From: Micrococcales bacterium | GTDB taxonomy: Bacteria; Actinomycetota; Actinomycetes; Actinomycetales; Microbacteriaceae | Length of the DNA: 64,000 nt | Reading direction: 5' to 3' | Assembly (NCBI GenBank): GCA_016212425.1 | Contig: JACRGJ010000031.1 | Span: forward strand, 1-64,000 | Shown here: piece after piece, positions 4,451 through 20,038 of the stretch | Layout: each line of letters opens with the position of its first letter | Position numbering within the stretch: the stretch's first letter is position 1 | The notes under the pieces: model-generated | Seen by the model: only the letters and a program-made list of their open reading frames with translations | Database searches by the model: none | Told to the model about the DNA's origin: nothing | Translations under genes and position numbers: made by a program

Positions 4451-5494
4451 TCAGGCGGCCGACGAACCACGGACGAGAAGCGCACACGCGGCCCGGTGCC
4501 CGCGCACCCGTACCCCCGCGCCGCCGCCCGCACCACCTGCACCCGCGCCCGCCCTCTCCTCGATGCGTCGCTGGAGGTAGCCCACCGCGGTCGCCGCAAG
4601 GTCGGCGATCTCGGGACGCACCGTCGAGAGGGTCGGACGGGTGTAGCGGGTCTCGTCGATGTCGTCGAAGCCGATCACCCCGACGTCCTCGGGCACCCGG
4701 AGGCCGCGGTCCTCGAGGGCGCGAAGAGCGCCGAGCGCGAGCGCGTCGTTGAAGGCCACCAGACCGTCAAAGGAGCGCCCCGCGTCGAGGAGTCGGCGCA
4801 CCGCATCCGCCCCCTGCGAACGCCCCCAGATCGGCTCCCGCTCGATCAACGCCTCATCGACCGGAAGGCCGGCCTCCGCGAGCGCCCGCCGGTACCCCTC
4901 GAGGCGCAGACTCGCCGACCCCACGCGCTCCTCCTGCCGCGCGCCGATCGCCGCAATACGCCGCCGTCCGCTCGCGACGAGGTGGGCTGTCGCCGCCGCA
5001 GCGCCCTCGAGGTGCCGCATCGAGACCCAGTCGGTGTGCCAGCCCGGGATCGGCTCGCCGAGCACCACCACCGGGGTCGTCACGTCGGCGCCGAGGCGCT
5101 CATCCCCCGCGCCGAGTCCCAGCACGCTGAACAGGATGCCGTCGACGATCCGCGTGCGCGTGCCCTGCAGCAGCTCGAGCTCGGTGTCGGGGTCGCCGTC
5201 GGACTGCTCCAGCACCACGAGCAGGTCGTGCTGCGCCGCCGCCCGCATCACCGCATCCGCGAGCTCGGCGAAGTACGGGTTCCGGATGTCGGGCACGATC
5301 AGCCCGATGACGCCGAGACGTCCCGAGCGGAGCCCTCGCGCGGCGAGATTCGGGCGATAGCCGAGCTTCTCGATCGCCGCCTCGACGCGCCGACGGGTCT
5401 CGTCGCCGAAGTTGCCCTGCCCCCGCACGACGTTCGACACGGTCTTGATCGACACGTTCGCCTCGCGGGCGACGTCGTGGAGGGTTACCGGCAT
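4451..5494 (-). CDS. LacI-family transcriptional repressor of the arabinan regulon
   Basis: 347 residues. The start is fixed by MPVTLHDVAREANVSIKTVS (HTH and hinge, residues 1-50) and a GAGGAGG ribosome site; an open frame upstream is not coding. The sugar-binding core runs from GVIGLIVPDIRNPYF to GFDDIDETRYTRPTLSTVRP. The C-terminus is unusually Ala/Gly/Arg-rich. It is the last gene of the minus-strand operon, 22 bp after the GH51 gene, so it would repress its own synthesis. The shared TACAACGTTGTA sites at 2648 and 11563 are the likely targets, and arabinose or an arabino-oligosaccharide the likely inducer. Confidence 0.9.
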   Translation of the reverse strand: MPVTLHDVAREANVSIKTVSNVVRGQGNFGDETRRRVEAAIEKLGYRPNLAARGLRSGRLGVIGLIVPDIRNPYFAELADAVMRAAAQHDLLVVLEQSDGDPDTELELLQGTRTRIVDGILFSVLGLGAGDERLGADVTTPVVVLGEPIPGWHTDWVSMRHLEGAAAATAHLVASGRRRIAAIGARQEERVGSASLRLEGYRRALAEAGLPVDEALIEREPIWGRSQGADAVRRLLDAGRSFDGLVAFNDALALGALRALEDRGLRVPEDVGVIGFDDIDETRYTRPTLSTVRPEIADLAATAVGYLQRRIEERAGAGAGGAGGGAGVRVRGHRAACALLVRGSSAA

Positions 5495-7052: not shown

Positions 7053-8377
7053 TCCTCTCCGTACCCGGAGACGCGGGCGGCGGGGCCCTGCGCGGCGGAG
7101 AGCGGGACCGCGGCGAGCGCGTCCGACCCCTCCGCGAGCGCCCGGAACTGCGCCGCGAGCAGGTTCGCCACCCGCTCCAGACCGGTGGCGCCCTCGACGA
7201 GGTCGTACAGGCCCATCGTCAGCCGGTGGTCCTCCCGCGGTGCGCGGCTGTGCCGCCAGGTCCATTCGTACATGTCGAAAAGCGGCCACCAGGTGTAGCC
7301 GATCACGCGATGCCCTTCGGCGCGCAGCTCGCCGATCTCGTCGACCGAGGCCCGCATCCAGTCGGCGCGCTGGGCGACCGTTCCGGTCACCGCCGTCTCG
7401 GTGAGCATCACGGGCGCGCCGTAGCGCTCCTCGTAGGCGACCAGCACCTCCCGGAGGCCCGCAGTGCCGTCGTCGCGGGTGGGACGCGGGTCGGCGAAGC
7501 CGCCGCCGTGGTGCACACCCGGCTCGAACACCTCGGTGGAGTGCAGCGGATAGTAGTTGACGCCCATCACGTCGGGCGGGGCCGGATGCGCGGTCAGCTC
7601 CGCCAGCTCTGCGTCGGTCATCCCGGACCGCCGCAGGTCACCGAGCAGCGGATGCCCCTCCCGCACGCGCCCGGTGACCAGGTCCTCGACGAGGTACCGC
7701 TGCTCGCGCATCCGCTCGACCGCCTCGCGGTGCTCCGGTGCGTCGACCGCCCCGGCGTAGCGGAAGCCGGCGTCGACATGCACGAAGACCACCTCCTCGC
7801 CGAGCACCTCGCGGATGCCGCGCTGCGCCCGCGAGAACCCCAGCGCGAGCGCGCGCACCATGCGGTTGAGACCTCGCTGCCCGGAGAGGCGCGGCGGCCA
7901 GTAGGCGTACTCGCCGCAGAACTGGGCGTGGATCATCGGTTCGTTGACCGGCGTGTAGGCGCTCACCGAGCCCGCGTAGCGCTCGCCCGCGGCCACCGCG
8001 TAGGCGGCGAAGCGGTCGGGGAAGTCGGGATTCGCGAACTCCGAGCGCAGCCAGAGCGGCGTGCCGTAGTGCAGGAGGTCGACGATCGGCTCGATGCCGA
8101 GCTCCGTCATCCGCCCCAGCACCCGATCCGGGAATGACCAGTCGTACACGCCCGGCTCGGGGTTGACGCGGTGCCAGGGAATGCCCCAGCGCAGCAGCCG
8201 CGCGCCGCTATCAGCGACCAGCTCGAGGTCGTCGCGCCAGCGCTCGTAGTGCTCAGTGAGCTCGTACTCGTCGATCGGCCGCTCCCGCCGCGAGCCCTGC
8301 GGCACGAAGGTGTCTTCGATGCCGAGCGCGAAGTGCAGACGTCCGTCGCGGTGCCAGCCCCGCATCCTCGTGCTCAC
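7049..8377 (-). CDS. GH1-like (clan GH-A) intracellular glycoside hydrolase
   Basis: 442 residues with no signal peptide. Clan GH-A motifs are clear: acid/base E146 in YTPVNEP and nucleophile E327 in MLTETAVTG, with a barrel tryptophan motif YTWWPLFDMYEW near the end. The departures from the GH1 consensus (TFNEP, ITENG) place it in a divergent group often annotated family 1 glycosylhydrolase. The substrate is uncertain: a beta-galactoside or beta-glucoside freed from pectic side chains (arabinogalactan) would fit the operon. The GTG start overlaps the permease stop by 4 bp; an internal ATG at 8365 is the alternative. Confidence 0.8.
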   Translation of the reverse strand: MSTRMRGWHRDGRLHFALGIEDTFVPQGSRRERPIDEYELTEHYERWRDDLELVADSGARLLRWGIPWHRVNPEPGVYDWSFPDRVLGRMTELGIEPIVDLLHYGTPLWLRSEFANPDFPDRFAAYAVAAGERYAGSVSAYTPVNEPMIHAQFCGEYAYWPPRLSGQRGLNRMVRALALGFSRAQRGIREVLGEEVVFVHVDAGFRYAGAVDAPEHREAVERMREQRYLVEDLVTGRVREGHPLLGDLRRSGMTDAELAELTAHPAPPDVMGVNYYPLHSTEVFEPGVHHGGGFADPRPTRDDGTAGLREVLVAYEERYGAPVMLTETAVTGTVAQRADWMRASVDEIGELRAEGHRVIGYTWWPLFDMYEWTWRHSRAPREDHRLTMGLYDLVEGATGLERVANLLAAQFRALAEGSDALAAVPLSAAQGPAARVSGYGEE

Positions 8378-9234
8378 TTGAGGCCCGAGGTCGCGATACT
8401 CGCGACGAACCGGCGCTGCACGATCACGAACAGGATCGCGAGGGGAGTGAGGGCGATGAGCGCACCGGCCATGAGCGGGCCGTAGGGCACGATCCCGCTC
8501 GGTCCGGTGAGCAGGGTGAGTCCGGAGGTGATGGTCGCCATCTCCTGGTCGTTGGTGAACACGAGCGGCCAGAGCAGGTCGTTCCAGTTGTTGACGAAGG
8601 TGAAGACGCCGAGCGTCAGAAGTGCCGGAAGCGCGTTCGGCAGGATCACGCTCCGGAAGATCCGGAACTCGGAGGCGCCGTCGATGCGCGCCGCGTTGTC
8701 GAGGTCCCGGGGCAGGGCGAGGAAGAACTGGCGCAGGAAGAAGATGCCGAACGCATCCGCCGCCCTCGGGATGATCAACGCCGCGAAGGAGTTGACCCAG
8801 CCGAACCCCGCGACCAGCTGGTAGAGCGGCACGAGGGTGGCCTGGAACGGGATCATCAGGCTCGCGATGATGAGGACCAGCAGCAGCCGGCTGCCGGTGA
8901 AGTCGATCCGGGCGAGAGCGTAGGCGGCGAGCGAGTCGAACAGCAACGCCAGGAGCGTGACACCGCCGGCGAAGACGAAACTGTTGAGGATCAGCCGAGC
9001 GAACGGCAGCTGCTGGAAGATCACGGCGAAGTTGTCGAGCGTCCACGCTTTCGGCAGGAGCGACGGCGGGAACGCGTTCACCTCGGCGGTCGGCTTGAAC
9101 GCGGTCAGCACGATGATGAGGATCGGGAGCACCACCACGGCCACGCCGATCAGGGCGAGCACGAAGAGGATCCAGCTCGAGGGCCGCGCCCACGGGTGGC
9201 GCGGCCGGAGCGTGCGGGCAAGCGCGGCGGTCAC
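8374..9234 (-). CDS. Carbohydrate ABC transporter permease (MalG-type)
   Basis: 286 residues with six predicted membrane helices. The EAA loop reads NAARIDGASEFRIFRSVILPNALP (about residues 165-190), the site that contacts the ATPase. It forms the channel with the adjacent permease. The GTG start lies in a GTGA overlap with the upstream permease stop, and its own stop overlaps the GH1-like start. No ATPase gene is in the operon, so a shared MsmK/MalK-type ATPase encoded elsewhere is presumed. Confidence 0.92.
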   Translation of the reverse strand: MTAALARTLRPRHPWARPSSWILFVLALIGVAVVVLPILIIVLTAFKPTAEVNAFPPSLLPKAWTLDNFAVIFQQLPFARLILNSFVFAGGVTLLALLFDSLAAYALARIDFTGSRLLLVLIIASLMIPFQATLVPLYQLVAGFGWVNSFAALIIPRAADAFGIFFLRQFFLALPRDLDNAARIDGASEFRIFRSVILPNALPALLTLGVFTFVNNWNDLLWPLVFTNDQEMATITSGLTLLTGPSGIVPYGPLMAGALIALTPLAILFVIVQRRFVASIATSGLK

Positions 9235-10184
9235 GAGGCGAGGTCCTTCTCCCGGCGGCTGCCGAGCGCGAACTGGATGAGGCTGAGTAGGAGGGTCGCC
9301 CCGAGCAGCACGTAGGAGAGGGCGGAGGCGATGCCCAGGTCGAGTTCCTTGAACCCGGACTGGTAGATCTCGGTCACCACGGTGTCGGTCGCGTGCAGCG
9401 GTCCCCCCTGCGTAAGCACGTAGATCTGGTCGAAGGCCTGCAGCGCGGCGATGAGGGCGAAGATCACGACGAAGGTGAGCGTGTTGTTGAGGAGGGGGAG
9501 CGTGACGCTGCGGAAGCGCCGGAGCGCCCCTGCGCCATCCACCCGCGCCGCCTCGTAGAGGCTGCGCGGGATGTCTTGCAGCCCGGCGACGAAGACCACC
9601 ATGTAGAAGCCGAAGCTCTTCCACACCGCCACCAGCACGACGGTCGGCATCGCGAGTACCGGGTCCTGCAGCACGTTGCCCAGGCGGATGCCGAGCCCAC
9701 GCAGCCAGTAGTTCAGTAGTCCGAGCTGCGGGTCGAGCAGGAACCCCCACGCGAACGCCGCGACGGCCAGCGAGACGATGAAGGGGAGGAACAGCGCCGA
9801 CCGCAGGAGTCCGCGGAAGGGGAGCCGCTCGTCCGCCACCACGAGCGCGACCAGGAGCGCGACCACCACCGCGACCGGGGTGAACAGAGCCGCGTAGATC
9901 GCGGTGTTGCCCATCGCCTTCACGAGCAGCGGGTCCTGGAAGATGCGCGCGTAGTTGGCGCCGCCGACGAAGGTCTCCGGCCCGAATCCGCTGGAGGAGA
10001 AGAACGAGGTGCGCAGCGCCGCGAGCATCGGGGAGGCGACGAACAGGATGAGGATCGTGAGCGCCGGGGCGAGGAAGCACAGCGCCGTGAGCGTGCGCAG
10101 AAGACCCCGGCCGAGCGGCCTCGGATCGCTGAGCGAGCGCGGCGCGCGGTAGTCGCGTCGAACCGCTCCGACCTGGGTGGTCAT
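9231..10184 (-). CDS. Carbohydrate ABC transporter permease (MalF-type)
   Basis: 317 residues and about six transmembrane helices. The EAA motif is EAARVDGAGALRRFRSVTLP, around residues 206-225. The ATG at 10184 follows the 59-bp gap after the binding-protein gene; that gap holds a strong hairpin. It pairs with the MalG-type permease to import the ligand of the binding protein, predicted to be arabino-oligosaccharides. Confidence 0.92.
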   Translation of the reverse strand: MTTQVGAVRRDYRAPRSLSDPRPLGRGLLRTLTALCFLAPALTILILFVASPMLAALRTSFFSSSGFGPETFVGGANYARIFQDPLLVKAMGNTAIYAALFTPVAVVVALLVALVVADERLPFRGLLRSALFLPFIVSLAVAAFAWGFLLDPQLGLLNYWLRGLGIRLGNVLQDPVLAMPTVVLVAVWKSFGFYMVVFVAGLQDIPRSLYEAARVDGAGALRRFRSVTLPLLNNTLTFVVIFALIAALQAFDQIYVLTQGGPLHATDTVVTEIYQSGFKELDLGIASALSYVLLGATLLLSLIQFALGSRREKDLAS

Positions 10185-10200
10185 GGTGTCTCCCTGCACA

Positions 10201-10234
10201 CGCGAGGGCCGGCGCGTCGGCGCCGACCCTCGCG
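10201..10234 (-). terminator. Intercistronic hairpin (attenuator / mRNA stabiliser)
   Basis: An 8-bp outer stem (CGCGAGGG, 10201-10208, with CCCTCGCG, 10227-10234) continues after one mismatch into a 6-bp inner stem (CGGCGC with GCGCCG) and a 4-nt loop. It sits between the binding-protein gene and the first permease gene and has no U-tract. Such hairpins commonly give partial termination or protect the upstream mRNA, raising binding-protein levels over the permeases. The structure is seen; the role is inferred. Confidence 0.7.
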
Positions 10235-10243
10235 GAGCTCTCA

Positions 10244-11509
10244 CTACTTCGCGGACAGTGCGGACTGCACGAGCAGCTGCGAGGCCTTCAGCGCGGCCGC
10301 CGGGTCCTCCCCGCCCAGCGCCCGTTGCGTGGCGTCGTCGACCGCGGACAGCACGTCCGAACTCTTGATGACCCCGGGCAGCAGCGGCCGAGCCCTGTCG
10401 GCGAGCGCGGTGAGCGTGGCGACGGTCGGGTTGGAGGAGACCGCCGACTCGGCGACGTTGGTGGTGAGCGGCGGCCAGCCGGAGCCGAGCGACCACTCCG
10501 CGGCGACCTTCTTCGAGTAGAAGTAGTCGAAGAAGGTCTCGGCCGCCTTCTTCTCGGCTGCGGTCGCGGTGGAGGTGATGCCCATCGACACCCCGATCGC
10601 CGAGGCGGCCTGGGCCTTCGGGCCCGCGGGGATGGCGGCCATGCCGGCGTCGATCTTGTTCCCGGCGGCGACCGCGACCATCCACGGTCCACCCACCTCC
10701 ATCGCGGCCTTGCCGGAGGCGAACAGGTTGTCGGACTTGATGCCATCCAGCCCAGTGGGCGAGATCTTGTCCTTGGTCACCGCATTCGCCCAGTAGGTGA
10801 GCGTCTCGACGTTCGCCGCGGAGTCGAGGACCGCCTTGCCGTTCTTCTCGATCGCCCCGCCGTTGCCGTAGAAGAGGCTGGCCCACACGCCGTTCCCGAC
10901 GGTCTGACGGTCCGGCAGTGCAAGCCCGTACTGCTCCGGGGTGCCGTCGCCGTTCTCGTCGACGGTGAGCTTCTTCGCCGCAGCGAGCCATTCGTCCCAG
11001 GTCTTCGGGAAGCTGGTGATGCCCGCGGCGTCGAACATCTTCTTGTTGTAGACCACCGAGAGCGGAACGAATCCGGTGGGCACGCCGTACTTCTTGCCGC
11101 CGACCTCCTCCATCGTCACCGCTTCGGGCTTGATCGACTTCGCCGCGCTGCTCGAGGAGTAGTAGTCACCGAGGTCGGCGAAGGCGTTCTTCCCGGCGTA
11201 CACCGGGAGCTGCTCGGCGGGGAGGGCGACGATCTGGGGTGCCTTCTTGGCGGCGAGCGCGGGGAGGAGGGAGTCGCCGATGACTTGCCAGGTCTTCACG
11301 GAGTACTTGACGGTGACCTTCGACTGCGAGGCGTTGAACTCGTCGATGATCTTGTTGAGCTTCTTGCCGTCGTCGGCCGTGTAGCCGTGCCAGAAGGTGA
11401 GTGTGGTCTTACCGGAGCCGGATCCGCCTGCGTCGGATGCCGCACATCCGGTGAGGGCGGCGGCGAGGCCGACGCCGAGCGCGAGTGCTGCTGCGACTGT
11501 TCGCTTCAT
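10244..11509 (-). CDS. Extracellular sugar-binding lipoprotein (ABC importer, cluster 1)
   Basis: 421 residues. A lipoprotein signal peptide ends in the lipobox LTGC (C22), followed by a Ser/Gly linker and the family-1 solute-binding fold (TLTFWHGYTADDGKKLN onward). It captures the oligosaccharide outside the membrane and delivers it to the two downstream permeases. It is the first gene of the operon; its promoter (11578-11606) and operator (11562-11575) lie upstream. By regulon membership the ligand is probably arabino-oligosaccharide, though sequence alone does not show this. Confidence 0.92.
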   Translation of the reverse strand: MKRTVAAALALGVGLAAALTGCAASDAGGSGSGKTTLTFWHGYTADDGKKLNKIIDEFNASQSKVTVKYSVKTWQVIGDSLLPALAAKKAPQIVALPAEQLPVYAGKNAFADLGDYYSSSSAAKSIKPEAVTMEEVGGKKYGVPTGFVPLSVVYNKKMFDAAGITSFPKTWDEWLAAAKKLTVDENGDGTPEQYGLALPDRQTVGNGVWASLFYGNGGAIEKNGKAVLDSAANVETLTYWANAVTKDKISPTGLDGIKSDNLFASGKAAMEVGGPWMVAVAAGNKIDAGMAAIPAGPKAQAASAIGVSMGITSTATAAEKKAAETFFDYFYSKKVAAEWSLGSGWPPLTTNVAESAVSSNPTVATLTALADRARPLLPGVIKSSDVLSAVDDATQRALGGEDPAAALKASQLLVQSALSAK

Positions 11510-11561
11510 CGAGATCAGTGCCTTTCGGGTGCCGCCGAGGCGGTGCTGCGTCGTCCAGGTG

Positions 11562-11575
11562 GTACAACGTTGTAC
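11562..11575 (-). promoter_or_regulatory. LacI-type operator of the arabinan transporter operon
   Basis: A perfect 14-bp palindrome, GTACAACGTTGTAC. It has the same 12-bp core as at 2648-2659 and lies 52 bp upstream of the binding-protein start. It begins 2 bp after the -10 element, so it covers the predicted transcription start, a classic position for repression. Confidence 0.82.
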
Positions 11576-11577
11576 TG

Positions 11578-11606
11578 ATGATGCGGGTGGCGGGGAGGAA
11601 TGTCAA
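11578..11606 (-). promoter_or_regulatory. SigA-type promoter of the arabinan operon
   Basis: On the minus strand a consensus -35 TTGACA (11606-11601) is followed by a 17-bp spacer and CATCAT (11583-11578), which matches four of six -10 positions including the key A and final T. The LacI-type operator starts immediately downstream. Confidence 0.65.
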
Positions 11607-11704
11607 GAAGTCCAGGCGCCCAGCGGCAACGGGAATCGCAACCCCCTTCCCCCGCGCCACGTCCGCGCTCACACTGACGGGATGCACCTGCTCCCGAGCG
11701 CGAC

Positions 11705-12061
11705 GTGAAGCGCATCCTGTACGCCAGCGGCAGCTTCCTCACCGAGACCGGGATCGCCGAGGCCCTGCTGGAGTACGCGGCGACGCTCGCGATCGTCGGA
11801 TCGTCGGACGTGGTCGTCTGCCAGGGGATCGACGACGCCGGTGTGAGCCGCCGGATCCAAATGCTCATCGGGCCCTCGAGTCAGATCCTCGCGATCGAGA
11901 CGGACGAGGGCAGTGGCGCTCTGGCCGATGTGGAGGAGACCATTGCGGAACTGAAGCGCCGCACGCGCCAGCGGCTGCCGGACTCGACGGACATCGGCGA
12001 CACCGGCCCGGATGCCCCCGCCGAGAGCGACGCGCAAAGCGCCTCGCACGAGTCGTACTGA
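11705..12061 (+). CDS. Hypothetical protein, small actinobacterial family
   Basis: 118 residues from GTG. The first ~90 residues look like a compact alpha/beta domain (RILYASGSFLTETGIAEALL, then ILAIETDEGSGALADVEETI). The last ~25 are acidic and low in complexity. The opening YASGSxLT followed by ADALL-type helix recurs in small Microbacteriaceae proteins that I have seen annotated only as hypothetical. No catalytic motif is visible. It starts about 100 bp from the divergent arabinan promoter and is 22 bp upstream of the next small gene, so the two probably form an operon. Function unknown. Confidence 0.75.
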   Translation: MKRILYASGSFLTETGIAEALLEYAATLAIVGSSDVVVCQGIDDAGVSRRIQMLIGPSSQILAIETDEGSGALADVEETIAELKRRTRQRLPDSTDIGDTGPDAPAESDAQSASHESY

Positions 12062-12083
12062 GCAGGGACGGAGAACCACGCGC

Positions 12084-12413
12084 ATGGGAACCATGGTTCA
12101 CGGCAACGTCTCCATCGACTTCGAGGATCGGCTGCTCTCGCACCTCCAGATCGTGATCGTGCAGCGCTTCCGCCGCAACGAGCCGCTGATTATGTCGTGG
12201 CTGGACGCCGTCTCCGTCGGCGACGGCCGCAGCTCGATGTGGATGACGCCGCACCTGCCGATGTACTTCAAGTTCGCGGGCTCGCGCGTACCCGCGATCG
12301 ATGAGCAGTGGCTGAAGCAGTTGACGGCGTCGGCCGACAGCTCGAGGGGGCTCATCCTGACCAGTCCCTCGGGCGAGTTGGCGCGCGCGATCGGATCGGT
12401 GCGCCTCGCCTGA
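12084..12413 (+). CDS. DUF7882-like small protein
   Basis: 109 residues starting MGTMVHGNVSIDF. The pattern LLSHLQIVIVQRFRRNE then SWLDAVSVGDGRSSMWMTPH and YFKFAGSRVPAID matches a small family widespread in Microbacteriaceae (sometimes misannotated as ATP-dependent DNA ligase, now DUF7882). These genes are often present in several copies per genome. No function is established. ATG at 12084; a longer upstream frame overlaps the preceding gene and is not supported. Confidence 0.78.
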   Translation: MGTMVHGNVSIDFEDRLLSHLQIVIVQRFRRNEPLIMSWLDAVSVGDGRSSMWMTPHLPMYFKFAGSRVPAIDEQWLKQLTASADSSRGLILTSPSGELARAIGSVRLA

Positions 12414-12461
12414 ACCCGCGAATCGAGGGAGCGTTCGCGGATCGAGCTTCACAATTCGGGC

Positions 12462-12776
12462 TCAGCGGCGCAACGCCGCGAGGTAGCCGACCCCGATGAC
12501 CGCTCCGCCGATTCCGACGTAGAGCCCCCATGCGCGAGAGCGACGGTGCCGCATGGACGCCGCGACCGCTCCGGCCGTGTTCGGCACGAGGGCCGCGACG
12601 CACAGCGCCCGCGCCAGCGGCCGGCGCCGCGCGTCCGCGTGCACCAGCGCGGTGCCCACCAGGGCGGGGGCGTAGCCCGCCAGGGCCGCCGCGCCGTGCG
12701 GCGGCGAGAGCAGCCACAGCGCCACGACATTCGCCGCGTCGAGGGCCGCGACGAACCGGAGCGCCCGCAGATCCAC
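12462..12776 (-). CDS. Small four-helix membrane protein, hypothetical
   Basis: 104 residues from a GTG at 12776, with hydrophobic segments near residues 8-22, 28-45, 55-72 and 82-100 and basic loops. No family was recognised. The reading frame stays open upstream, but that part is Arg/Pro-rich and overlaps the intergenic region before the alcohol dehydrogenase, so the shorter start is preferred. It is transcribed divergently from the dehydrogenase gene. Confidence 0.6.
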   Translation of the reverse strand: MDLRALRFVAALDAANVVALWLLSPPHGAAALAGYAPALVGTALVHADARRRPLARALCVAALVPNTAGAVAASMRHRRSRAWGLYVGIGGAVIGVGYLAALRR

Positions 12777-12933
12777 CGCTTCACCCTGCCCGACCAGCGG
12801 CGCGGCGCTGCACGCGCACAGCGGCCTCGCATCCCCGGGGGACGGTCCTCTCGAATCCCGGGCCCGGGAGGCACGTGTCCGCCGGCGACGCAACCCCCTC
12901 CCCTCTCGCGTGACGGAGGGAGAGCGTGGAGAC

Positions 12934-14097
12934 ATGAGGGCGATGACCTACCGCGGGCCGTACAAGGTGCGGGTCGAGGAGAAGGACCGGCCGCGGATCG
13001 AGCATCCGAACGACGCGATCGTCCGGGTCACCCTCGCCGCGATCTGCGGGTCGGACCTGCACCTCTACCACGGGCTGATGCCCGACACCCGGATCGGGCA
13101 CACCTTCGGGCACGAGTTCATCGGGGTGGTCGACGAGGTCGGCTCGTCGGTCGAGAGTCTGCAGGTGGGCGACCGGGTGATGGTGCCGTTCAACATCGCC
13201 TGCGGCACCTGCTTCTTCTGCGCCAGGGGGCTGATCTCCAACTGCCACAACGTCAACCCGAACGCCACCGCGGTGGGCGGGATCTACGGCTACTCGCACA
13301 CCACCGGCGGCTACGACGGCGGCCAGGCGGAGTACGTGCGCGTGCCGTTCGCCGATGTCGGGCCGAGCGTCATCCCCGAGGGCATCTCCGACGAGAACGC
13401 GCTGATGATGACGGATGCGCTCTCGACCGGGTACTTCGGCGCGCAGCTCGGCGGCACCCGCGAGGGCGACACGGTGGTGGTGTTCGGCGCCGGACCGGTC
13501 GGTCTCTACGCGGCACGCTCCAGCTGGCTCATGGGCGCGGGCCGGGTGATCGTGGTCGACTACCTCGACTACCGCCTGCAGAAGGCCCGCGAGTTCGCGT
13601 ACGCCGAGACGGTCGACTTCGGCGCGGTCGACGACATCGTGCTGCACCTGAAGCGGATGACGGATCACCTGGGCGCCGACGTCGTCATCGATGCGGTGGG
13701 TGCCGAGGCGGACGGCAACCTCGCCCAGCACATCACCTCGGCCAAGTTCAAGCTCCAGGGCGGCTCGCCCGTCGCGCTCAACTGGGCGATCGACTCGGTG
13801 CGCAAGGGCGGCACCGTCTCGGTGATGGGCGCCTACGGTCCGCTGTTCAGCGCCGTGAAGTTCGGCGACGCCCTCAACAAGGGCCTGACCCTGCGGATGA
13901 ACCAGGCACCGGTGAAGCGCCAGTGGCCCCGGCTGTTCGAGCACATCCGCTCCGGCGCCCTCGACCCCAGCGCGATCATCACCCACCGCATCCCGCTCGA
14001 GCACATCGCGGAGGCGTACCACGTGTTCTCGTCGAAGCTCGACGACTGCATCAAGACCGTGATCGTCCCGGAGTCGGCGGCGTGGACCGCCGCCTAG
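12934..14097 (+). CDS. Zinc-dependent alcohol dehydrogenase (glutathione-independent formaldehyde dehydrogenase-like)
   Basis: 387 residues of the medium-chain dehydrogenase family. Catalytic-zinc ligands are in CGSDLHLYHG and GHEFIG. The structural-zinc cysteine cluster is CGTCFFCARGLISNC (about residues 89-103). The Rossmann motif is VFGAGPVGL. The NAD(P)-linked oxidation substrate is unproven; relatives are annotated as formaldehyde or alcohol dehydrogenases. ATG 12934 was chosen over a start 24 bp upstream because GGAG lies just before it and the protein then begins MRAMTYRGPYKV as in relatives. It is followed 8 bp later by its usual partner gene. Confidence 0.9.
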   Translation: MRAMTYRGPYKVRVEEKDRPRIEHPNDAIVRVTLAAICGSDLHLYHGLMPDTRIGHTFGHEFIGVVDEVGSSVESLQVGDRVMVPFNIACGTCFFCARGLISNCHNVNPNATAVGGIYGYSHTTGGYDGGQAEYVRVPFADVGPSVIPEGISDENALMMTDALSTGYFGAQLGGTREGDTVVVFGAGPVGLYAARSSWLMGAGRVIVVDYLDYRLQKAREFAYAETVDFGAVDDIVLHLKRMTDHLGADVVIDAVGAEADGNLAQHITSAKFKLQGGSPVALNWAIDSVRKGGTVSVMGAYGPLFSAVKFGDALNKGLTLRMNQAPVKRQWPRLFEHIRSGALDPSAIITHRIPLEHIAEAYHVFSSKLDDCIKTVIVPESAAWTAA

Positions 14098-14105
14098 GAG
14101 GCACC

Positions 14106-14678
14106 ATGCCGTACTCGGCAGAGAACCGTTCCCGCGTCACCGACACCGCGGAGCTGCGACGCCGCATCCCGGGCTGGGGCGCCGACCTCGACCCGGCGGA
14201 CCGGCCCGCGGTGCCGAGGGAGCAGGCCGACCCCGAGCGCTGGGGAGCGCACTGGGATGCGCCGGAGCAGCAGCCGTGGAACCACGAGGAGCCCCGCGAG
14301 CGCTCTATCGAACACGGGCAGCTGACCCCGGTGTTCGGCACCGCCCAGCCGCTGCACGGCGTCTCGGGCGCCATCCGCCGCTACGCCTACGACCGGTTCA
14401 GCGAGGCGCGCGCGGCGCACTGGCTGCTGCTGGTGCTGGGCGACCGGGCGGATGCCCTCGGCGCCCATCTGCGCTCGTTGCTCACGCTGCGACCCGACAA
14501 CCCGGTGACCGAGACGGGAGTGCTGGCGGAGTTCGGCTACGGCGGCGTGCGGTCGCGGCGGGGTCGCGGGCGCGTCGATCTCGCGCACGTGTGGCTCGAC
14601 CCGATCCTCGTCGCGGGGCCCTTCGTGCTCGGCGGGGTGCTCGTCTTCCGCGCCGTGCGGCGCGGGCGGCGAACCTAG
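14106..14678 (+). CDS. Conserved partner of the zinc alcohol dehydrogenase, unknown function
   Basis: 190 residues beginning MPYSAENRSRVTDTAELRRR, then IPGWGADLDPADRPAVPRE and FGTAQPLHGVSGAIRRYAYDRFSE. This arrangement is typical of a family found next to formaldehyde-dehydrogenase-like genes in many actinobacteria and proteobacteria. Residues near 95-130 (HWLLLVLGDRADALGAHL) and a C-terminal hydrophobic stretch, PFVLGGVLVF, suggest membrane association. The 8-bp spacing argues for a functional link, but the role is not known. Confidence 0.8.
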   Translation: MPYSAENRSRVTDTAELRRRIPGWGADLDPADRPAVPREQADPERWGAHWDAPEQQPWNHEEPRERSIEHGQLTPVFGTAQPLHGVSGAIRRYAYDRFSEARAAHWLLLVLGDRADALGAHLRSLLTLRPDNPVTETGVLAEFGYGGVRSRRGRGRVDLAHVWLDPILVAGPFVLGGVLVFRAVRRGRRT

Positions 14679-14750
14679 GTTGCCGAGCCTCTGACCGGCG
14701 GGTTACAGTCGGCGCGGGTCGCGTGCCCGATCGGACGAGGAGGAGGGGCC

Positions 14751-14819
14751 ATGTCGGAACCTCCGCATTCGGTGATCATCCTCCCGAATCGCCCTCAGCT
14801 CCTCGTCCCTCGACTCTGA
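14751..14819 (+). CDS. Putative 22-residue proline-rich leader peptide
   Basis: A short frame with an outstanding ribosome site (GAGGAGGAGG) encodes 22 residues, five of them proline (positions 4, 5, 12, 15 and 20), with an acidic-Pro-Pro start (MSEPP). It ends 43 bp before the MgtE-type sensor gene. Short Pro- or acid-rich leaders act as Mg2+-responsive translation sensors upstream of Mg2+ transport genes in enterobacteria and have been proposed in actinobacteria. Nothing else shows that it is a gene; it could be chance. Confidence 0.4.
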   Translation: MSEPPHSVIILPNRPQLLVPRL

Positions 14820-14862
14820 CAGATCAGGTCGCCGCGGACGAGATCGATGATCGGAATCCGCG

Positions 14863-16242
14863 ATGCCTCGGTCTTCACCCGGGAAAGTCTCCTCGGCACT
14901 CTCCCCAGCCTCCCTCGCCCGTCGCAGCCAGGCGCGCAGCCAGCGGTTGACGACGACCCGCGAGGTGCGGCGCGCCATCGTCAGCGTTGCGGGCCTGGTG
15001 GGCGCCCCCGTCCGGAATCAGGTCGGTCAGCAGATCGGCCGCGTGATCGACGTGGTCGCCCGCATGCACGCCGGCGACCGCTACCCGCCGATCACCGGGG
15101 TGCTGATCCGGGTCGGCTGGCGCACCAGTTTCCTCTCCGTCACCAGCGTGGGCGCGATCGCCCACCGCTCGGTGTCCCTCAAGAGCTCGCGCCTGGATCT
15201 GCGGGACTTCCTGCGCCGGCCCGGCGAGGTCATCCTGGCCAAGGACGTGCTCGACCATCAGCTCATCGACATCGACGGCCGCCAGGTGATCCGGGCCGCG
15301 GACCTCTACCTCGCCCCGGTCGGCGCAGACTTCCGTCTGGTCGGCGTGGACGTCAGCCTCGCGACCCTGCTGCGCCGGCTCGGTCCGCGGCTGCTTCGCG
15401 GCCGTCCGACCCCGGATCGGGTGATCGACTGGGACGCCATCTCCCCGTTCGGCGACACCCTGACCAGCGGCCCGTCGTCGGTGCGGCTGCGGACCTCGGA
15501 CGACAGTCTGCGCCGCCTCCTGCCCGGGGACCTCGCCGTCCTCCTCGAGGACCTCGGCCGGTCCGAGCGGCACGCCCTGCTGGCCCGACTGGATCGGGAG
15601 ACCGCCGCGGACGCGCTGGAGGAGATGGATCCGGACGAGCTCGAGGCGCTGCTGCGGGAGGTCGAGCCGAGGCGGGCGGCGGAGCTGGTCTCGGCGATGG
15701 AACCCGACGAGGCCGTCGACGCGTTGCGGGATCTCTCCCCCATCGAGAGGGAGGACATCCTGGCCCTCATCCCCGAGCCCACCCGGCAGGGTCTCGCCGA
15801 ACTGCTGGCCTACCCCGAGCGCACCGCGGGGGGTTTCATGACCACCGTCCTCGCCCGCGCGCACACCGACGACACCATCGGCGACGTGCAGCGACTCGTC
15901 GCCGAGCTCGGGGAGCACCGCCAGGAGATCGACGCCATCCTCATCCTCGACCGCGAGGAGCGGCTGGTCGCCGATCTGTCGCTCTTCGATCTCATCGTCC
16001 ATCCGGTATCGGAGCGGATCGACTCCGTGCTGCAGGACGAACACGATCACCCGCCCCCCTTGACCGTGCTTCCCGGCGCGCCCGTCGCCGAGGTCGCCGA
16101 ACAGCTGCTGCGCACCCGCCGCCCGTCCGTGCTCGTCGTGGACGAGACCGGCCAGCCGGTGGGGCGCATCCTGGCCGACGACGTGCTCGATGCACTCCTG
16201 CCCGAACGCGGACGGCGTCACTTCCCGAGGCTGCTGCAGTGA
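14863..16242 (+). CDS. MgtE-type Mg2+-sensor protein (PRC-like, MgtE_N and CBS domains) lacking the channel domain
   Basis: 459 residues. A PRC-barrel-like region spans about 45-190 (GAPVRNQVGQQIGRVIDVVA). Residues about 215-325 are the MgtE N superhelix with its repeated LLxDLxxxERxxLLxxLD and MDPDELEALL helices. About 325-450 is a CBS pair (AGGFMTTVLARAHTDD and VLVVDETGQPVGRILADD). In true MgtE these cytosolic domains bind Mg2+ and close the fused channel. Here the transmembrane domain is missing, and an Nramp-family transporter starts in the stop codon (4-bp overlap). It is therefore likely a Mg2+-sensing subunit of that transporter (inference). A later start, such as the TTG near codon 29, is possible. 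Confidence 0.85.
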   Translation: MPRSSPGKVSSALSPASLARRSQARSQRLTTTREVRRAIVSVAGLVGAPVRNQVGQQIGRVIDVVARMHAGDRYPPITGVLIRVGWRTSFLSVTSVGAIAHRSVSLKSSRLDLRDFLRRPGEVILAKDVLDHQLIDIDGRQVIRAADLYLAPVGADFRLVGVDVSLATLLRRLGPRLLRGRPTPDRVIDWDAISPFGDTLTSGPSSVRLRTSDDSLRRLLPGDLAVLLEDLGRSERHALLARLDRETAADALEEMDPDELEALLREVEPRRAAELVSAMEPDEAVDALRDLSPIEREDILALIPEPTRQGLAELLAYPERTAGGFMTTVLARAHTDDTIGDVQRLVAELGEHRQEIDAILILDREERLVADLSLFDLIVHPVSERIDSVLQDEHDHPPPLTVLPGAPVAEVAEQLLRTRRPSVLVVDETGQPVGRILADDVLDALLPERGRRHFPRLLQ

Positions 16243-17618
16243 CGCGGGTCGAGGGGGAGCCCGGACCCACGGAGTCGTCCGGAGCCGCGGCGTCGTCCGG
16301 AGCCGCAGCGTCGCCCGGATCCGCGGCGTCGCCCGGATCCGCAGGGACGTCGGATGCCGGCTCCGGCGCGCGGCGTCGGCGGATCCCGGGCGGCCGACGC
16401 CTGCTGCTCGCCCTCGCCGGGCTCGGGCCGGGGCTGATCGCCGCGAACGCGGGGAACGACGCCGCCGGCATCTCGACCTACGCCAGCGCCGGCAGCCAGT
16501 ACGTCTACCGGACCCTGTTCTTCATGGTGCTGGTCACCATCGCCCTGGTCTTGGTGCAGGAGATGGCGGTGCGGCTGGGCACCTTCACCGGGAAGGGCAT
16601 CGCGGCCCTCATCCGCGAGCAGTTCAGCCTCCGCCTCACCGGGCTCGCGCTGTTCTGCCTCCTCCTGGCGAACACCGGTCTGGTGGTGGCCGAGTTCGCC
16701 GGCATCGGCGCGGCGTTCCAGCTGATCGGGGTCGACCGCTTCTGGGTGATCCCCCCGGCCGCGATCCTGATCTGGGCCCTCGTGCTGTTCGGCTCCTACC
16801 GCTACGCGGAGCGGATCCTCCTCGTGCTGTCGCTGGCGTTCTTCGCCTACCCGGTCGCCGCGATCCTCGCCCAGCCGGATTGGAGCGTCGTCGCCACCAA
16901 CCTCGTCGTGCCCAACTTCCTGTTCACCAAGGAGTTCCTGCTTCTGGGTGTCGCCCTCATCGGCACCACCGTCAGTCCGTACATGCAGCTCTACATCGCC
17001 GCCGGCGTCGTCGACCGCGGCGCCGGTCCGAGCGGCTACCGGGCGGCCCGGTTCGACGCCGTCGCGGGGGCCCTCTTCGCCTGCCTGATCAGCATCAGCA
17101 TCATCATCGCGACCGGGGCCACCATCGGCGGCCGCGGTCCGCTCAGCAGCGCCGCGGAGGCCGCGGAGGCGTTGCGTCCGGTGGCCGGCAGCGGGGCGGA
17201 GATCCTCTTCGCCGTGGGTCTGCTCGGGGCCAGCGCTCTGGCCGGGGCGGTCGTGCCGCTCTCCAGCAGCTATGCGATCAGCGAGGCGATCGGCGTGGAG
17301 CGCTCGGTGTCTCGGCGGTTCAGGGAGGCCCCGCTCTTCCTGGGCCTTTTCACGTTCCAGATCGCCCTCGGGGCGGCGATCGCGCTCACCCCGGTGAACC
17401 TGATCGGTCTGCTGATCGGCACGCAGGTGCTGCAGGGCGTGCTGACGCCGATCATCCTCACGTACATCCTGATCCTCGCCAACCGCAAGGAGGTGCTCGG
17501 CGACGCGGCCAACAAGCCGCTGTTCCGGATCGCGGCCACCGCCGTGGTGGTGGGCATCAGCCTCATGTCGCTGTTCCTGCTCGGCACGACGATCCTCGGC
17601 TTCTTCGGGATCGGGTAG
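16239..17618 (+). CDS. Nramp-family divalent cation transporter with non-canonical metal site (NRMT-like)
   Basis: 459 residues with about 11 helices after a 45-residue Ser/Ala/Gly-rich N-terminus. The canonical TM1 motif DPGN reads DAAG (GLIAANAGNDAAGISTY): Asp is kept, Asn lost. The TM6 motif MPH reads SPY (GTTVSPYMQLYIAAGVVDRG), so the Met ligand that favours Mn2+/Fe2+ is absent. Loss of that Met is described in Nramp-related Mg2+ transporters. With the MgtE-type sensor encoded immediately upstream (4-bp overlap), Mg2+ is the predicted substrate. The motif comparison was made by eye. Confidence 0.85.
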   Translation: MTRVEGEPGPTESSGAAASSGAAASPGSAASPGSAGTSDAGSGARRRRIPGGRRLLLALAGLGPGLIAANAGNDAAGISTYASAGSQYVYRTLFFMVLVTIALVLVQEMAVRLGTFTGKGIAALIREQFSLRLTGLALFCLLLANTGLVVAEFAGIGAAFQLIGVDRFWVIPPAAILIWALVLFGSYRYAERILLVLSLAFFAYPVAAILAQPDWSVVATNLVVPNFLFTKEFLLLGVALIGTTVSPYMQLYIAAGVVDRGAGPSGYRAARFDAVAGALFACLISISIIIATGATIGGRGPLSSAAEAAEALRPVAGSGAEILFAVGLLGASALAGAVVPLSSSYAISEAIGVERSVSRRFREAPLFLGLFTFQIALGAAIALTPVNLIGLLIGTQVLQGVLTPIILTYILILANRKEVLGDAANKPLFRIAATAVVVGISLMSLFLLGTTILGFFGIG

Positions 17619-17656
17619 GGCCCGCCGGTCGGGCTCGGTACGGCATCCTTGAAGAG

Positions 17657-18844
17657 ATGCCCGAGTCCGCCGCGCCCGCCCGACGGCGGCTCGCCCTCCT
17701 GCTCGTCGGGATCGTGCTCCTCGCGATCCAGCTGCGCAGTCCGCTCGTCGCGGTCGCGCCGGTCGCCGCGGAGGCGCAGGCGGGGTGGGGGGTCACCCCT
17801 GCTGCGTTCGGGCTGCTGACCACCCTCCCTCTGCTCTGCTTCGGGCTCGCTACCCCCCTGGCGCCGCTCGCGGCGCGTCGCCTCGGGCTGGAGGGCGCGA
17901 TCGAGCTGTGCCTGGGAGGCATCGTCGTGGCGACGGTGCTGCGCTCGATCGACGGCTTCGGCGTCGCCCTCGTCGCCGCGGTGCTCCTCGGCGTCTCCAT
18001 CACCCTCGGCAACGTGCTGGTCCCGGCGATCATCCGCCGCGACGTGGGTCCGCGCGGGCGGGCCGCCGCGACCGGGGCGTACACGGTGGCGATCAACGTC
18101 GGGACGATGCTCACCACCATCGGTACGGTGCCGCTGGCGAGCCTGCTCGGCTGGCGCGCGGCGATCGCCGCCTGGAGCGTCCTCGGCGTCGGCAGTGCGG
18201 TGTTCTGGGTCGCGGTGCTGCGCCGGGGCGCCCCGGTGGCGGTGGTCGATCCGCTCGCGTCCGGCCGCTTCCGCCCGAGGCTTCTGGCGTGGATGCTGGG
18301 CGGGGCCTTCGCGGCGCAGTCGTTCAGCTACTACGCGATGACCACGTGGCTGCCGTCGCTGCTGCGGGACGAGCGCGGCTTCGACGCCTCGGTCGCCGGG
18401 GTCGCGTCCTCGGTGTTCCAGCTCGCGGGCATCGCGGGCGGAATCGGCGTGCCGCTTCTTGCGCTGCGGCTGCGTCCGCGCACCATCCTCGGCATCGTCG
18501 GGGCGCTGTGGATCGCCTTGCCGCTCGGGCTGCTGGTCGTGCCCGAGCAGTTCGTGCTGCTCGGCGTGCTCGGCGGCGCCGCCCAGGGGGCGGGATTCGC
18601 CTCGATCTTCACGATCATCGCGGATGCGGCGGGGGACGCCCGCCAGACGACCGCGCTCTCCGCCTTCGTGCAGACCGTCGGCTACCTCGTCGCCGCGACG
18701 GCTCCCCCGCTGATCGGCGGCGCCCGGCAGCTGAGCGGCGGGTGGACCCTCCCCCTCGGCATCGTGCTCGCCGCGACACTCGTGTTCCTCCTTGCCGGCG
18801 TCACCGGCGCCACCCTCGCCGCCCGCCACCACCACGCACGCTGA
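17657..18844 (+). CDS. CynX/NimT-family MFS transporter
   Basis: 395 residues, twelve predicted helices. The opening LLLVGIVLLAIQLRSPLVAVAPV is typical of the CynX (cyanate/2-nitroimidazole) group, as is ALSAFVQTVGYLVAATAPPLIGG in the C-terminal half. It probably exports or imports a small anion or xenobiotic. It lies 38 bp after the Nramp gene, so read-through is possible, but there is no functional link. The start ATG has only a weak ribosome site (GAAGAG). Confidence 0.88.
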   Translation: MPESAAPARRRLALLLVGIVLLAIQLRSPLVAVAPVAAEAQAGWGVTPAAFGLLTTLPLLCFGLATPLAPLAARRLGLEGAIELCLGGIVVATVLRSIDGFGVALVAAVLLGVSITLGNVLVPAIIRRDVGPRGRAAATGAYTVAINVGTMLTTIGTVPLASLLGWRAAIAAWSVLGVGSAVFWVAVLRRGAPVAVVDPLASGRFRPRLLAWMLGGAFAAQSFSYYAMTTWLPSLLRDERGFDASVAGVASSVFQLAGIAGGIGVPLLALRLRPRTILGIVGALWIALPLGLLVVPEQFVLLGVLGGAAQGAGFASIFTIIADAAGDARQTTALSAFVQTVGYLVAATAPPLIGGARQLSGGWTLPLGIVLAATLVFLLAGVTGATLAARHHHAR

Positions 18845-18862
18845 CCGATTGACGGCCGAGGC

Positions 18863-18890
18863 CGGCGGCCGGCGATCGGCGGCCGGCGAT
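18863..18890. repeat. Exact 14-bp tandem repeat, two copies
   Basis: CGGCGGCCGGCGAT occurs twice head to tail (18863-18876 and 18877-18890) in the gap between the MFS gene and the agmatine deiminase gene. Each unit is partly self-complementary (GGCCGGC), so the transcript could form a hairpin. No other copy was noticed in the window. Confidence 0.75.
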
Positions 18891-18961
18891 CACAGAGAAC
18901 CCTCCGGCCGCGCTCAACGCCGTGGCGGGCCCGGGTCCGCGACGCCCGGGCGACCCCTACG

Positions 18962-20038
18962 ATGAGCCGCGTGAACTGGCGGATGCCCGCGGAGACCGCT
19001 CCGCACGAGCGCACCTGGATGGCGTTCCCCGTCGCCGGCGCCACGCTCGGCGCCACGGACATCGAGCGCGAGGAGTGCTACGCCGCCTGGACCGCGGTGG
19101 CGCACGCGGTCGCGGAGTTCGAGCAACTCACGATGATCGCCGACCCGAGCGAGGCGTCCCGGGCGCGTCGGATGCTCGGGGCCGGCATCGAGGTGGTCGA
19201 GGCGCCGGTGGACGAGTACTGGATGCGCGACATGGGGCCGACGTTCGTGGTCGACGACGCGCGCCCGGGCATCCTGGGCGCCGTCGACTGGACCTTCAAC
19301 GGCTGGGGCGCGCCGGCCTGGGCCGAGTGGCGGAAGTCGGCGGAGATCGCCAGGGTCGTCAGCGATCTCGTCGGCAGCGAGCTGGTCAGCTCGACCCTCG
19401 TGAACGAGGGCGGCGGCATCCACGTCGACGGCGAGGGCACGGTGCTGGTCACCGAGACGGTGCAGCTCGACCCGCGCCGCAACCCGTTCCTCGACCGGGC
19501 TCGGGTCGAGGCGGAACTCGCCCGCACGATCGGCGCGACGCACGCCGTCTGGCTGCCCCGCGGCCTCACTCGCGACTACGACGACATGGGCACTAACGGC
19601 CACGTCGACATCGTGGCGACGATCCCCTCGCCCGGGCACCTGCTGCTGCACGCCCAACCCGACCCTTCTCACCCGGACCACGCCGTGATGGCCGAGCTGC
19701 GGGCGATGCTCGCGGCGCAGGCCGACGCCGCCGGCCACCCGTTCGAGATCGTCGACGTTCCGGCGCCGGCGACATTGCGCGATGCGCACGGCTTCGTGGA
19801 CTGGAGCTACATCAACCACCTCGTGGTCGACGGCGGCGTCATCGCCTGCGGCTTCGGCGAGGAGCGAGCGGATGCGGTGGCGCGCGGCATCCTCGAGGCC
19901 GCGTACCCCGGCCGCCGGGTGCTGACGGTGGACGCGCGGCCGATCTTCGTGCGCGGCGGCGGCATCCACTGCATCACGCAGCAGCAGCCGCGGATCGCGG
20001 TGCCCGCCGCGGGTGCCGCCGCGGGCGCCGCCGCGTGA
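18962..20038 (+). CDS. aguA: Agmatine deiminase (guanidine-group-modifying family)
   Basis: 358 residues. Catalytic features of the family are visible: EYWMRDMGPTFVVD (about 81-94), NEGGGIHVDGEG (about 145-156), the His motif TNGHVDIVATI, and the nucleophilic Cys in GGGIHCITQQQP near residue 337. It hydrolyses agmatine to N-carbamoylputrescine and ammonia in the cytoplasm. The Ala/Gly tail after residue 345 is low-complexity. The amidase gene starts 42 bp later, probably in the same operon. The alternative is a peptidylarginine-deiminase-like enzyme with another guanidine substrate. Confidence 0.9.
   Translation: MSRVNWRMPAETAPHERTWMAFPVAGATLGATDIEREECYAAWTAVAHAVAEFEQLTMIADPSEASRARRMLGAGIEVVEAPVDEYWMRDMGPTFVVDDARPGILGAVDWTFNGWGAPAWAEWRKSAEIARVVSDLVGSELVSSTLVNEGGGIHVDGEGTVLVTETVQLDPRRNPFLDRARVEAELARTIGATHAVWLPRGLTRDYDDMGTNGHVDIVATIPSPGHLLLHAQPDPSHPDHAVMAELRAMLAAQADAAGHPFEIVDVPAPATLRDAHGFVDWSYINHLVVDGGVIACGFGEERADAVARGILEAAYPGRRVLTVDARPIFVRGGGIHCITQQQPRIAVPAAGAAAGAAA

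Follow-up and report, generated by a model that had tools for sequence, protein, structure and literature searches.

Why should the Mg2+-sensing domains known from the MgtE channel stand, without that channel, directly before a carrier related to Nramp, and what controls the two genes? The locus that raises this question belongs to a Micrococcales bacterium (assembly GCA_016212425.1, contig JACRGJ010000031.1, positions 1 to 64,000); this whole stretch of 64,000 nucleotides (nt) is called the window here. We consider that the locus is probably a Mg2+ import operon composed of a short leader open reading frame (ORF), a free-standing MgtE-like sensor and a carrier of the NRMT type. The gene pairing and the idea of feedback were already published in 2014 and are not new (PMC4072509). 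What may be new, as read from sequence, is the leader ORF before the pair, of a type shared with two unrelated kinds of Mg2+ transporter gene.

Sensor and carrier genes of the pair

The original prediction described an upstream protein with MgtE_N and CBS domains and no channel, an Nramp gene starting inside the upstream stop codon, and DAAG and SPY in place of the Nramp motifs DPGN and MPH. All of these features were borne out. The GTG start of the Nramp gene (16239-16241) overlaps the TGA of the sensor gene (16240-16242), reading GTGA (16239-16242). In Pfam, the sensor matched MgtE_N (E 7.4e-22) and CBS (E 2e-10, residues 397-446, second CBS only), with no match to the MgtE transmembrane domain PF01769, and its score with TIGR00400 (MgtE) stayed at 70.1 bits, below the cut-off of 232.75. 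To the domains predicted before we add a PRC-barrel-like part, whose match in the window sensor lies below the Pfam threshold (15 bits vs a cut-off of 21.2) and exceeds it in several relatives. The AlphaFold2 model (mean pLDDT 89.6) has a strand-rich N-terminal part followed by the N domain and the CBS pair, and its second half resembles MgtE cytosolic structures (best 2zy9, E 6.4e-18, 234 columns).

The gating mutants of Thermus MgtE are named in PMC5882242, and five of the six MgtE positions tested are acidic in the window sensor. Among 78 paired sensors, D or E stands at the E59 position in 76, D at D91 in 71, D or E at D95 in 76, D at D247 in 74, and D or E at D250 in 70. By its N domain, CBS pair and gating acids, the window protein qualifies as a putative cytosolic Mg2+ sensor of the MgtE-like type. 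It shares these three traits with the cytosolic gate of Thermus MgtE and differs from it in being a separate polypeptide without a channel, with an extra PRC-like N-terminal part and a basic tail where MgtE has its plug-helix acids. We propose that this tail takes the place of the plug helix, whose acids E258 and D259 lie beyond the Thermus MgtE fragment used for comparison. A tail of the same length is found in 56 of 79 paired sensors (window included), with PE-RGR-x-H-F-P-R-L-L-x as the commonest letters.

For the downstream gene, the product matched Pfam Nramp with 252.8 bits, and its best solved relative by sequence is the Eggerthella lenta NRMT (EleNRMT; 317.3 bits vs 75.7 for MntH). The AlphaFold2 model (mean pLDDT 88.3) points the same way, with 7qia (EleNRMT) as best fold match at a TM score of 0.94 on the target. 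Transmembrane helix (TM) 1 reads N-D74-A-A-G77 and TM6 reads G-T243-T-V-S246-P-Y. Over 94 NRMT-type sequences (80 loci, 13 further loci and the window), D74, G77 and T243 never change, Glu is kept at E152 in 93 and Gln at Q396 in 89, and position 246 is Ser in 40, Thr in 45, Ala in 9 and never Met. In EleNRMT, transport suffers strongly when D55 or Q379 is changed, and the variant T224A, at the position of T243, shows no detectable Mg2+ transport (PMC8806188). In DraNramp, the variants M230A/S/T had the top Mg2+ import scores among single variants (PMC13060092), and the window protein has Ser where DraNramp has M230. At the two proton-pathway positions looked at, Y248 stands at the histidine of MPH and E152 is retained.

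A quick tree of 112 rows, with SH-aLRT support only and with the Clostridium acetobutylicum and Acidobacterium capsulatum proteins of Shin et al. absent, set 110 NRMT-type rows apart, with support 100, from DraNramp and from the MntH of the window's genome. Within it, the window protein groups with L063 (91) and next with L066 (91), inside a 22-row group (99) that sits in a 64-row group (100), almost wholly Actinomycetota; the nearest neighbour of EleNRMT is L054, 95% identical. Identity as a canonical Mn2+/Fe2+ Nramp (MntH) is ruled out by the DAAG and SPY motifs and by this tree. Being closer to EleNRMT than to canonical Nramps, and with DxxG and TxxS and no soft Met, the window protein classes by sequence as NRMT type, which supports the predicted likeness of its metal site to Nramp-related Mg2+ transporters, of which the E. 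lenta member carries Mg2+ (PMC8806188). Its signature is of the same type as that published for EleNRMT/NrmT (DxxG-TxxA/T), with EleNRMT as nearest solved structure; it differs by Ser in TM6 for Ala/Thr, the other metal-site residues being alike.

Conservation of the two genes as neighbours, on which the original prediction depended, was checked by a profile scan of genome contigs with the Nramp alignment alone, keeping the best 80 of at least 467 relatives as loci and calling sensor homologues at HMM E 1e-5 or better. A sensor homologue lies upstream on the same strand in 78 of these 80 loci, within 250 nt in 76 and 1.2-1.4 kb away in the other two (L124 and L132). Since the loci were recovered by Nramp alone, the pairing is not chance. 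No sensor homologue was found in the loci L130 and L139, and the sensor ORFs are short in L107, L117 and L128. By a first-start rule, the exact 4-base overlap of the two genes recurs in 24 of the 80 loci. As a side observation, L068 and L076 each hold two sensor-Nramp pairs of different subclades, back to back and divergent.

This is the same kind of gene pair as NrmT/NRMT with an adjacent MgtE-like gene (PMC4072509, PMC8806188). Shin et al. 2014 reported that MgtE-like genes adjoin most members of the NrmT group and speculated on cytoplasmic feedback, and they described Mg2+ transport and M-boxes for the NrmT of C. acetobutylicum (PMC4072509). L054, the near-identical relative of EleNRMT, also has a sensor gene upstream; its product carries one C-terminal hydrophobic segment, whereas the window sensor is soluble.

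The leader open reading frame

The leader ORF, which has a strong Shine-Dalgarno, ends 43 bases before the sensor ATG, and a looser leader pattern gave two overlapping matches at 14739-14764, vs a shuffle mean of 0.15. We looked for its like in the 75 regions, the window among them, that have 350 nt or more before the sensor, requiring an ORF of at most 60 aa, a Shine-Dalgarno of at least 5 and [ED]PP in the first 13 residues; the remainder of the same sequences on both strands (1,807,642 nt) served as background. By this rule, 23 of the 75 regions have a leader, the window included, and the background has 5. The stricter [ED]PPS[ST] form gave 17 regions, the window not among them, and none in the background. 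Looser expressions found a leader in 41 of 79 regions, and a motif list including the Streptomyces form MDSSPGHS in 40 of 79 (background 1 in 1.81 Mb), the window included in both; the leader counts depend on the rule, and the motif list was compiled after the peptides were seen.

In the 80 loci (911,642 nt), all 20 full-pattern matches lie within 600 nt upstream of a sensor. By the rules given above, the leader occurs among loci labelled Acidobacteria only in L110, which trees with Actinomycetota. In 60 further sensor regions, three of the five loci of the same clade have the leader (L043, L046, L047). Only L043 is new among them, L046 and L047 coming from the genomes that had already given L098 and L115. 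An ORF in L195 that is unlike the others fits as well.

The leader type is found beyond the sensor-NRMT operons. The pattern GGAGG-N3..11-RTG-N6..12-GARCCNCCNAGT was searched in 396 genomes and gave 12 matches, vs 4 for the reversed pattern. Six of the 12 precede Mg2+ transporter genes of three families. Three of these are sensor-NRMT operons (G157, G437, G073), of which only G437 is new because G073 and G157 also gave L098 and L115. Two are MgtE genes (G107 and G290; TIGR00400 353.8 and 352.6 bits, cut-off 232.75) and one is a CorA gene (G269; TIGR00383 208.2 bits, cut-off 200.75). None of these three genomes belonged to the set from which the pattern was made, so that with G437 four such matches lie outside it. 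The leader type of the sensor-NRMT operons therefore also precedes two unrelated kinds of Mg2+ transporter gene.

The six matches without a Mg2+ transporter are about as many as expected by chance from the reversed control. They include a 45-aa ORF before an M23 peptidase gene (L227), reading frames of at least 100 aa (L224, L225) and, as read from the printed letters, out-of-frame cases (G377, G102). The window leader is not among the genome-wide matches because it reads EPPH. For the CorA gene of the window's genome, no ORF with a Shine-Dalgarno of at least 4 was found in the 700 nt before the match. Separately, five viral contigs (L230-L234) match the leader DNA pattern.

MgtL is an enterobacterial Mg2+ leader peptide. 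By its ribosome-binding site, its acidic and proline codons and its position, the window leader fits the MgtL type as a candidate. Like MgtL, MgtM/MgtP and MgtQ, it is a short ORF before Mg2+ transporter genes with acidic and/or proline codons near the start; unlike these enterobacterial leaders, the window type has another sequence, belongs to another phylum and precedes three transporter families. The acidic codons of Salmonella mgtQ make ribosomes unstable and thereby increase the production of MgtB (PMC8092293). An M-box of M. tuberculosis acts on uORF2/Rv1805A, a small conserved ORF that is described as mycobacteria-specific; most of its peptides carry a proline at position 7 (PMC12810186). 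We compared it by its description only: both are short conserved ORFs with a strong Shine-Dalgarno in a Mg2+-linked leader and a conserved N-terminus with a fixed proline, whereas Rv1805A is described as mycobacteria-specific (PMC12810186). By eye, a short ORF preceded by a strong Shine-Dalgarno follows the aptamer in 13 of 15 M-box stretches taken from Streptomyces, Mycobacterium and relatives, the exceptions being L147 and L153, and ten of these 13 ORFs have Ser-Pro-Gly near the start; the ORFs behind the Streptomyces and Mycobacterium M-boxes read, for example, MDSSPGHSRP, MDCSCSSPGHSRP and MGSDSSPYPSP. From mgtQ, uORF2/Rv1805A and these short ORFs, we therefore propose a leader class tied to Mg2+, with a mechanism and a kinship to Rv1805A that we infer. 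In a literature search that left subscription papers mostly outside, we found no actinobacterial EPPS leader, and no description of the gene pair beyond PMC4072509.

M-box riboswitches suggest a link between relatives of the pair and Mg2+. In the window, no M-box (RF00380) was found at gathering scores, nor at E 10 over 14560-15060, and control of this operon by an M-box is rejected since none matches upstream; the window thus differs from the M-box-bearing NrmT loci and has the leader ORF. An M-box lies directly upstream of the pair in seven of the 80 loci (L069, L071, L072, L086, L121, L141, L142), the one in L121 being weak (44.9 bits, cut-off 44); this count, with 50 of the 80 loci scanned under stricter filters, is a lower bound because some loci have little upstream sequence. 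Of the seven, five belong to the near relatives of the window, the 20 loci whose TM1 motif is likewise DAAG. An M-box was also found in four of eight further loci (L051, L052, L060, L062). M-boxes also precede eight NRMT paralogues (L148-L155) that are about 32-34% identical to the window protein and had no sensor in the fetched stretch; each of these genomes also has a sensor-NRMT locus. In L060, a Cyclic di-GMP-II riboswitch (5109-5174) lies just downstream of the sensor-NRMT pair. The features of the window are collected in Table 1.

Table 1. Positions of the leader, sensor and carrier features in the window
Feature	Position	Strand	Remarks
Leader Shine-Dalgarno	14739..14748	+	ggaggagggg
Leader ORF	14751..14819	+	MSEPPHSVIILPNRPQLLVPRL; 22 aa, 5 prolines, begins MSEPPHS; proposed Mg2+-responsive leader peptide
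Sensor gene	14863..16242	+	459 aa; PRC-barrel-like part, MgtE_N and CBS pair, without channel domain
Strand-rich PRC-barrel-like N-terminal region	14977..15357	+	about residues 39-165; weak PRC match at 45-71, strands in model; borders approximate
MgtE_N domain	15523..15819	+	residues 221-319; D250, D282, D286 at Thermus MgtE E59, D91, D95
CBS pair	15826..16200	+	about residues 322-446; D440, D443 at MgtE D247, D250; R419 at D226
Basic C-terminal tail	16201..16239	+	PERGRRHFPRLLQ; residues 447-459, at the place of the MgtE plug helix
NRMT-type Nramp transporter gene	16239..17618	+	459 aa; GTG start within the stop codon of the sensor gene
TM1 metal-site motif D74-A-A-G77	16458..16469	+	corresponds to EleNRMT D55..G58
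TM6 metal-site motif T243-T-V-S246	16965..16976	+	corresponds to EleNRMT T224..A227

Proposed mechanism and alternatives

At low Mg2+, ribosomes would fall off or stall at the Glu-Pro-Pro near the start of the leader ORF and downstream expression would rise, on the model of MgtL and MgtQ. The NRMT carrier would import Mg2+, and probably Mn2+, without proton coupling, as suggested by EleNRMT. At ample cytosolic Mg2+, the N domain and the CBS pair of the soluble sensor would close on Mg2+, and the Mg2+-bound sensor would lower the activity of the carrier from the cytosolic side, perhaps via its basic C-terminal tail. The feedback in this sensor-carrier step is the idea of Shin et al. 2014 (PMC4072509).

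A number of observations weigh against this reading, and we give each with the part that it touches. For the sensor, R replaces D226 in the window protein as well as in 56 of the 78 paired sensors, and the plug-helix acids E258/D259 fall where the sensor has its basic tail. For the leader, the EPPH of the window lies outside the strict EPPS pattern, and the [ED]PP rule finds no leader in 52 of the 75 regions, the Chloroflexota loci among them. The leader region folds no better than its shuffles (z -1.21). Both MgtE matches come from one genus. Finally, one genome-wide match is a 16-aa leader-like ORF, MTRRDEPPSREAPCPT, directly before a gene for CtaG, a cytochrome oxidase assembly protein (L226:130-1087). 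We know of no link of CtaG to Mg2+; this ORF could be chance, or a use of such leaders outside Mg2+ transport.

The alternative that survives best is that the conserved leader acts as an RNA element, or encodes a small protein with a function of its own, and is not a Mg2+-sensing leader peptide, which we regard as a serious if somewhat disfavoured possibility. In its favour, the Ser codon is AGT in 21 of the 23 leaders, nearly fixed, which may mean a constraint at the RNA level; and the M-box-controlled Rv1805A was suggested by its authors to be a peptide modulating or joining a transporter (PMC12810186). Set against this, each of the 20 full-pattern matches has its start in frame, with no out-of-frame start among them, and the E-P-P codons vary at the third base: in the 23 leaders, Glu is GAA in 17 and GAG in 5, with Asp GAC once, the first Pro is CCC in 15, CCT in 7 and CCA in 1, and the second Pro is CCA in 8, CCG in 7, CCT in 4 and CCC in 4. 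Conservation is limited to the residues around the motif, and the peptides vary between 12 and 44 aa in length; this is more in keeping with a nascent-chain device than with a folded protein. No Rfam family matched over 14560-15060 even at E 10. A conserved hairpin between Shine-Dalgarno and anti-Shine-Dalgarno was also considered as the cause of the conservation and rejected by reasoning on the proline codon: the first Pro is mostly CCC, therefore it does not pair with GGAGG. We infer from these sequences that the EPP-type ORF probably encodes a Mg2+-responsive leader peptide.

The sensor could also be a Mg2+-dependent regulator in its own right, acting for example on a DUF1003 membrane protein or on assembly, and merely co-transcribed with NRMT; we think this unlikely. 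The sensor family reaches well beyond the pair: at E 1e-10, a homologue is present in 182 of 396 genomes of the phylum, and a survey of 47 loci (40 fresh, 7 taken over from earlier sets) gave 50 sensor ORFs, of which 17 adjoin Nramp and 33 do not, the stretch of L168 ending too soon after the sensor to judge its neighbour. Some sensors without Nramp adjoin DUF1003 genes (L056, L063) and Mrp-type ATPase genes (L056, L059). A fused sensor-Nramp ORF was found in none of the 80 loci, and such a fusion is rejected as proof of contact between the two proteins; a 923-aa open frame in the window is out of frame with the sensor. In A. capsulatum, co-expression of the MgtE-like gene gave no better rescue (PMC4072509). 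Against a separate regulator stands the presence of the sensor in nearly all NRMT loci. A sequence expression for the basic C-terminal tail points the same way, matching 49 of the 78 paired sensors and none of the 32 unpaired ones; among the paired sensors of the survey, however, it matches just 3 of 12. It was written after the fact and is descriptive. In addition, the same module is covalently joined to transporters elsewhere: in L048:1090-5043 and L049:278-4231, one protein of 1317 aa combines the PRC-MgtE_N-CBS module with a P-type cation ATPase, and in L050 (2325-4322) the module is fused to the MgtE channel domain.

These fusions also bear on the predicted origin of the sensor by splitting off from MgtE. 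Some Coriobacteriia-type NRMT partners (L131, L142, L053, L062) have a hydrophobic C-terminal region of about 200 aa, with a marginal MgtE match in L062 (E 0.058) and none in L053. Such regions, and the single hydrophobic segment of L054, are consistent with a stepwise loss of the channel, and this direction is one possibility only; the module is also fused to a P-type ATPase and to MgtE and often stands without Nramp.

Quite improbable, in our view, is that the pair is a Mn2+ (transition-metal) importer of the NRMT kind like that of A. capsulatum, with an MgtE-like protein that senses Mn2+ or acts otherwise. In its favour, the A. capsulatum pair (ACP2977, without M-box) rescued a Mn2+ defect fully and a Mg2+ defect only with low millimolar Mg2+, with no effect of the partial MgtE gene (PMC4072509), and EleNRMT also carries Mn2+ (PMC8806188), whereas M-boxes before the pair in near relatives, a leader type common to MgtE and CorA genes, the canonical Nramp gene present elsewhere in the genome and metal-site residues that match EleNRMT save for Ser instead of Ala all argue for Mg2+. 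A 2026 preprint describes Nramp-related proteins as paraphyletic and diverse (PMC12873925), so the substrate does not follow from the resemblance to EleNRMT. The predicted Mg2+ importer stands in part: the conserved pairing, the NRMT type, the M-boxes of near relatives and the gating acids favour it, and the weak Mg2+ rescue by the A. capsulatum pair (PMC4072509) counts against it.

Genomic setting and wider meaning

The sensor-NRMT pair was probably acquired or is kept in a variable segment, to judge from its low identity within the family and from similarity to same-genus genomes that starts only at 18964. In 298 other genomes of the family, matches at E 1e-40 or better occur in 32, the best with only 36% identity. 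A gene a short way downstream (18962-20038) shares 69-72% identity with three genomes of the same genus, and DNA similarity to these (L206-L208) begins abruptly at 18964, with nothing matched leftward (window 8000-18963, 14-kb stretches). The genome is 95.9% complete and has one MgtE_N gene, that of the window, as well as a CorA and the separate MntH; no second MgtE_N gene and no PF00689 P-type ATPase were matched in it. Promoter and terminator scans over 14400-17800 gave no match.

At the level of the phylum, we consider it an evenly balanced proposal that Actinobacteria have an undescribed class of Mg2+-responsive leaders, with acidic-Pro-Pro-Ser in the first dozen residues and a strong Shine-Dalgarno, that controls sensor-NRMT, MgtE and CorA genes whether or not an M-box is present and includes the ORFs behind the M-boxes of Streptomyces and mycobacteria. 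In this proposal, the window operon would join leader translation, a free-standing sensor and an NRMT carrier, and the sensor module would be a plug-in part, found also in fusions with P-type ATPases and with MgtE.

For a gene pair described in 2014, the leader gives a further, independent line that points to Mg2+. It would bring NRMT, MgtE and CorA genes of Actinobacteria under one putative control device, and it may bear on why the mycobacterial M-box acts on a small conserved ORF. For the sensor, the fusions to P-type ATPase and MgtE suggest one Mg2+-sensing part that serves several unrelated transporters.

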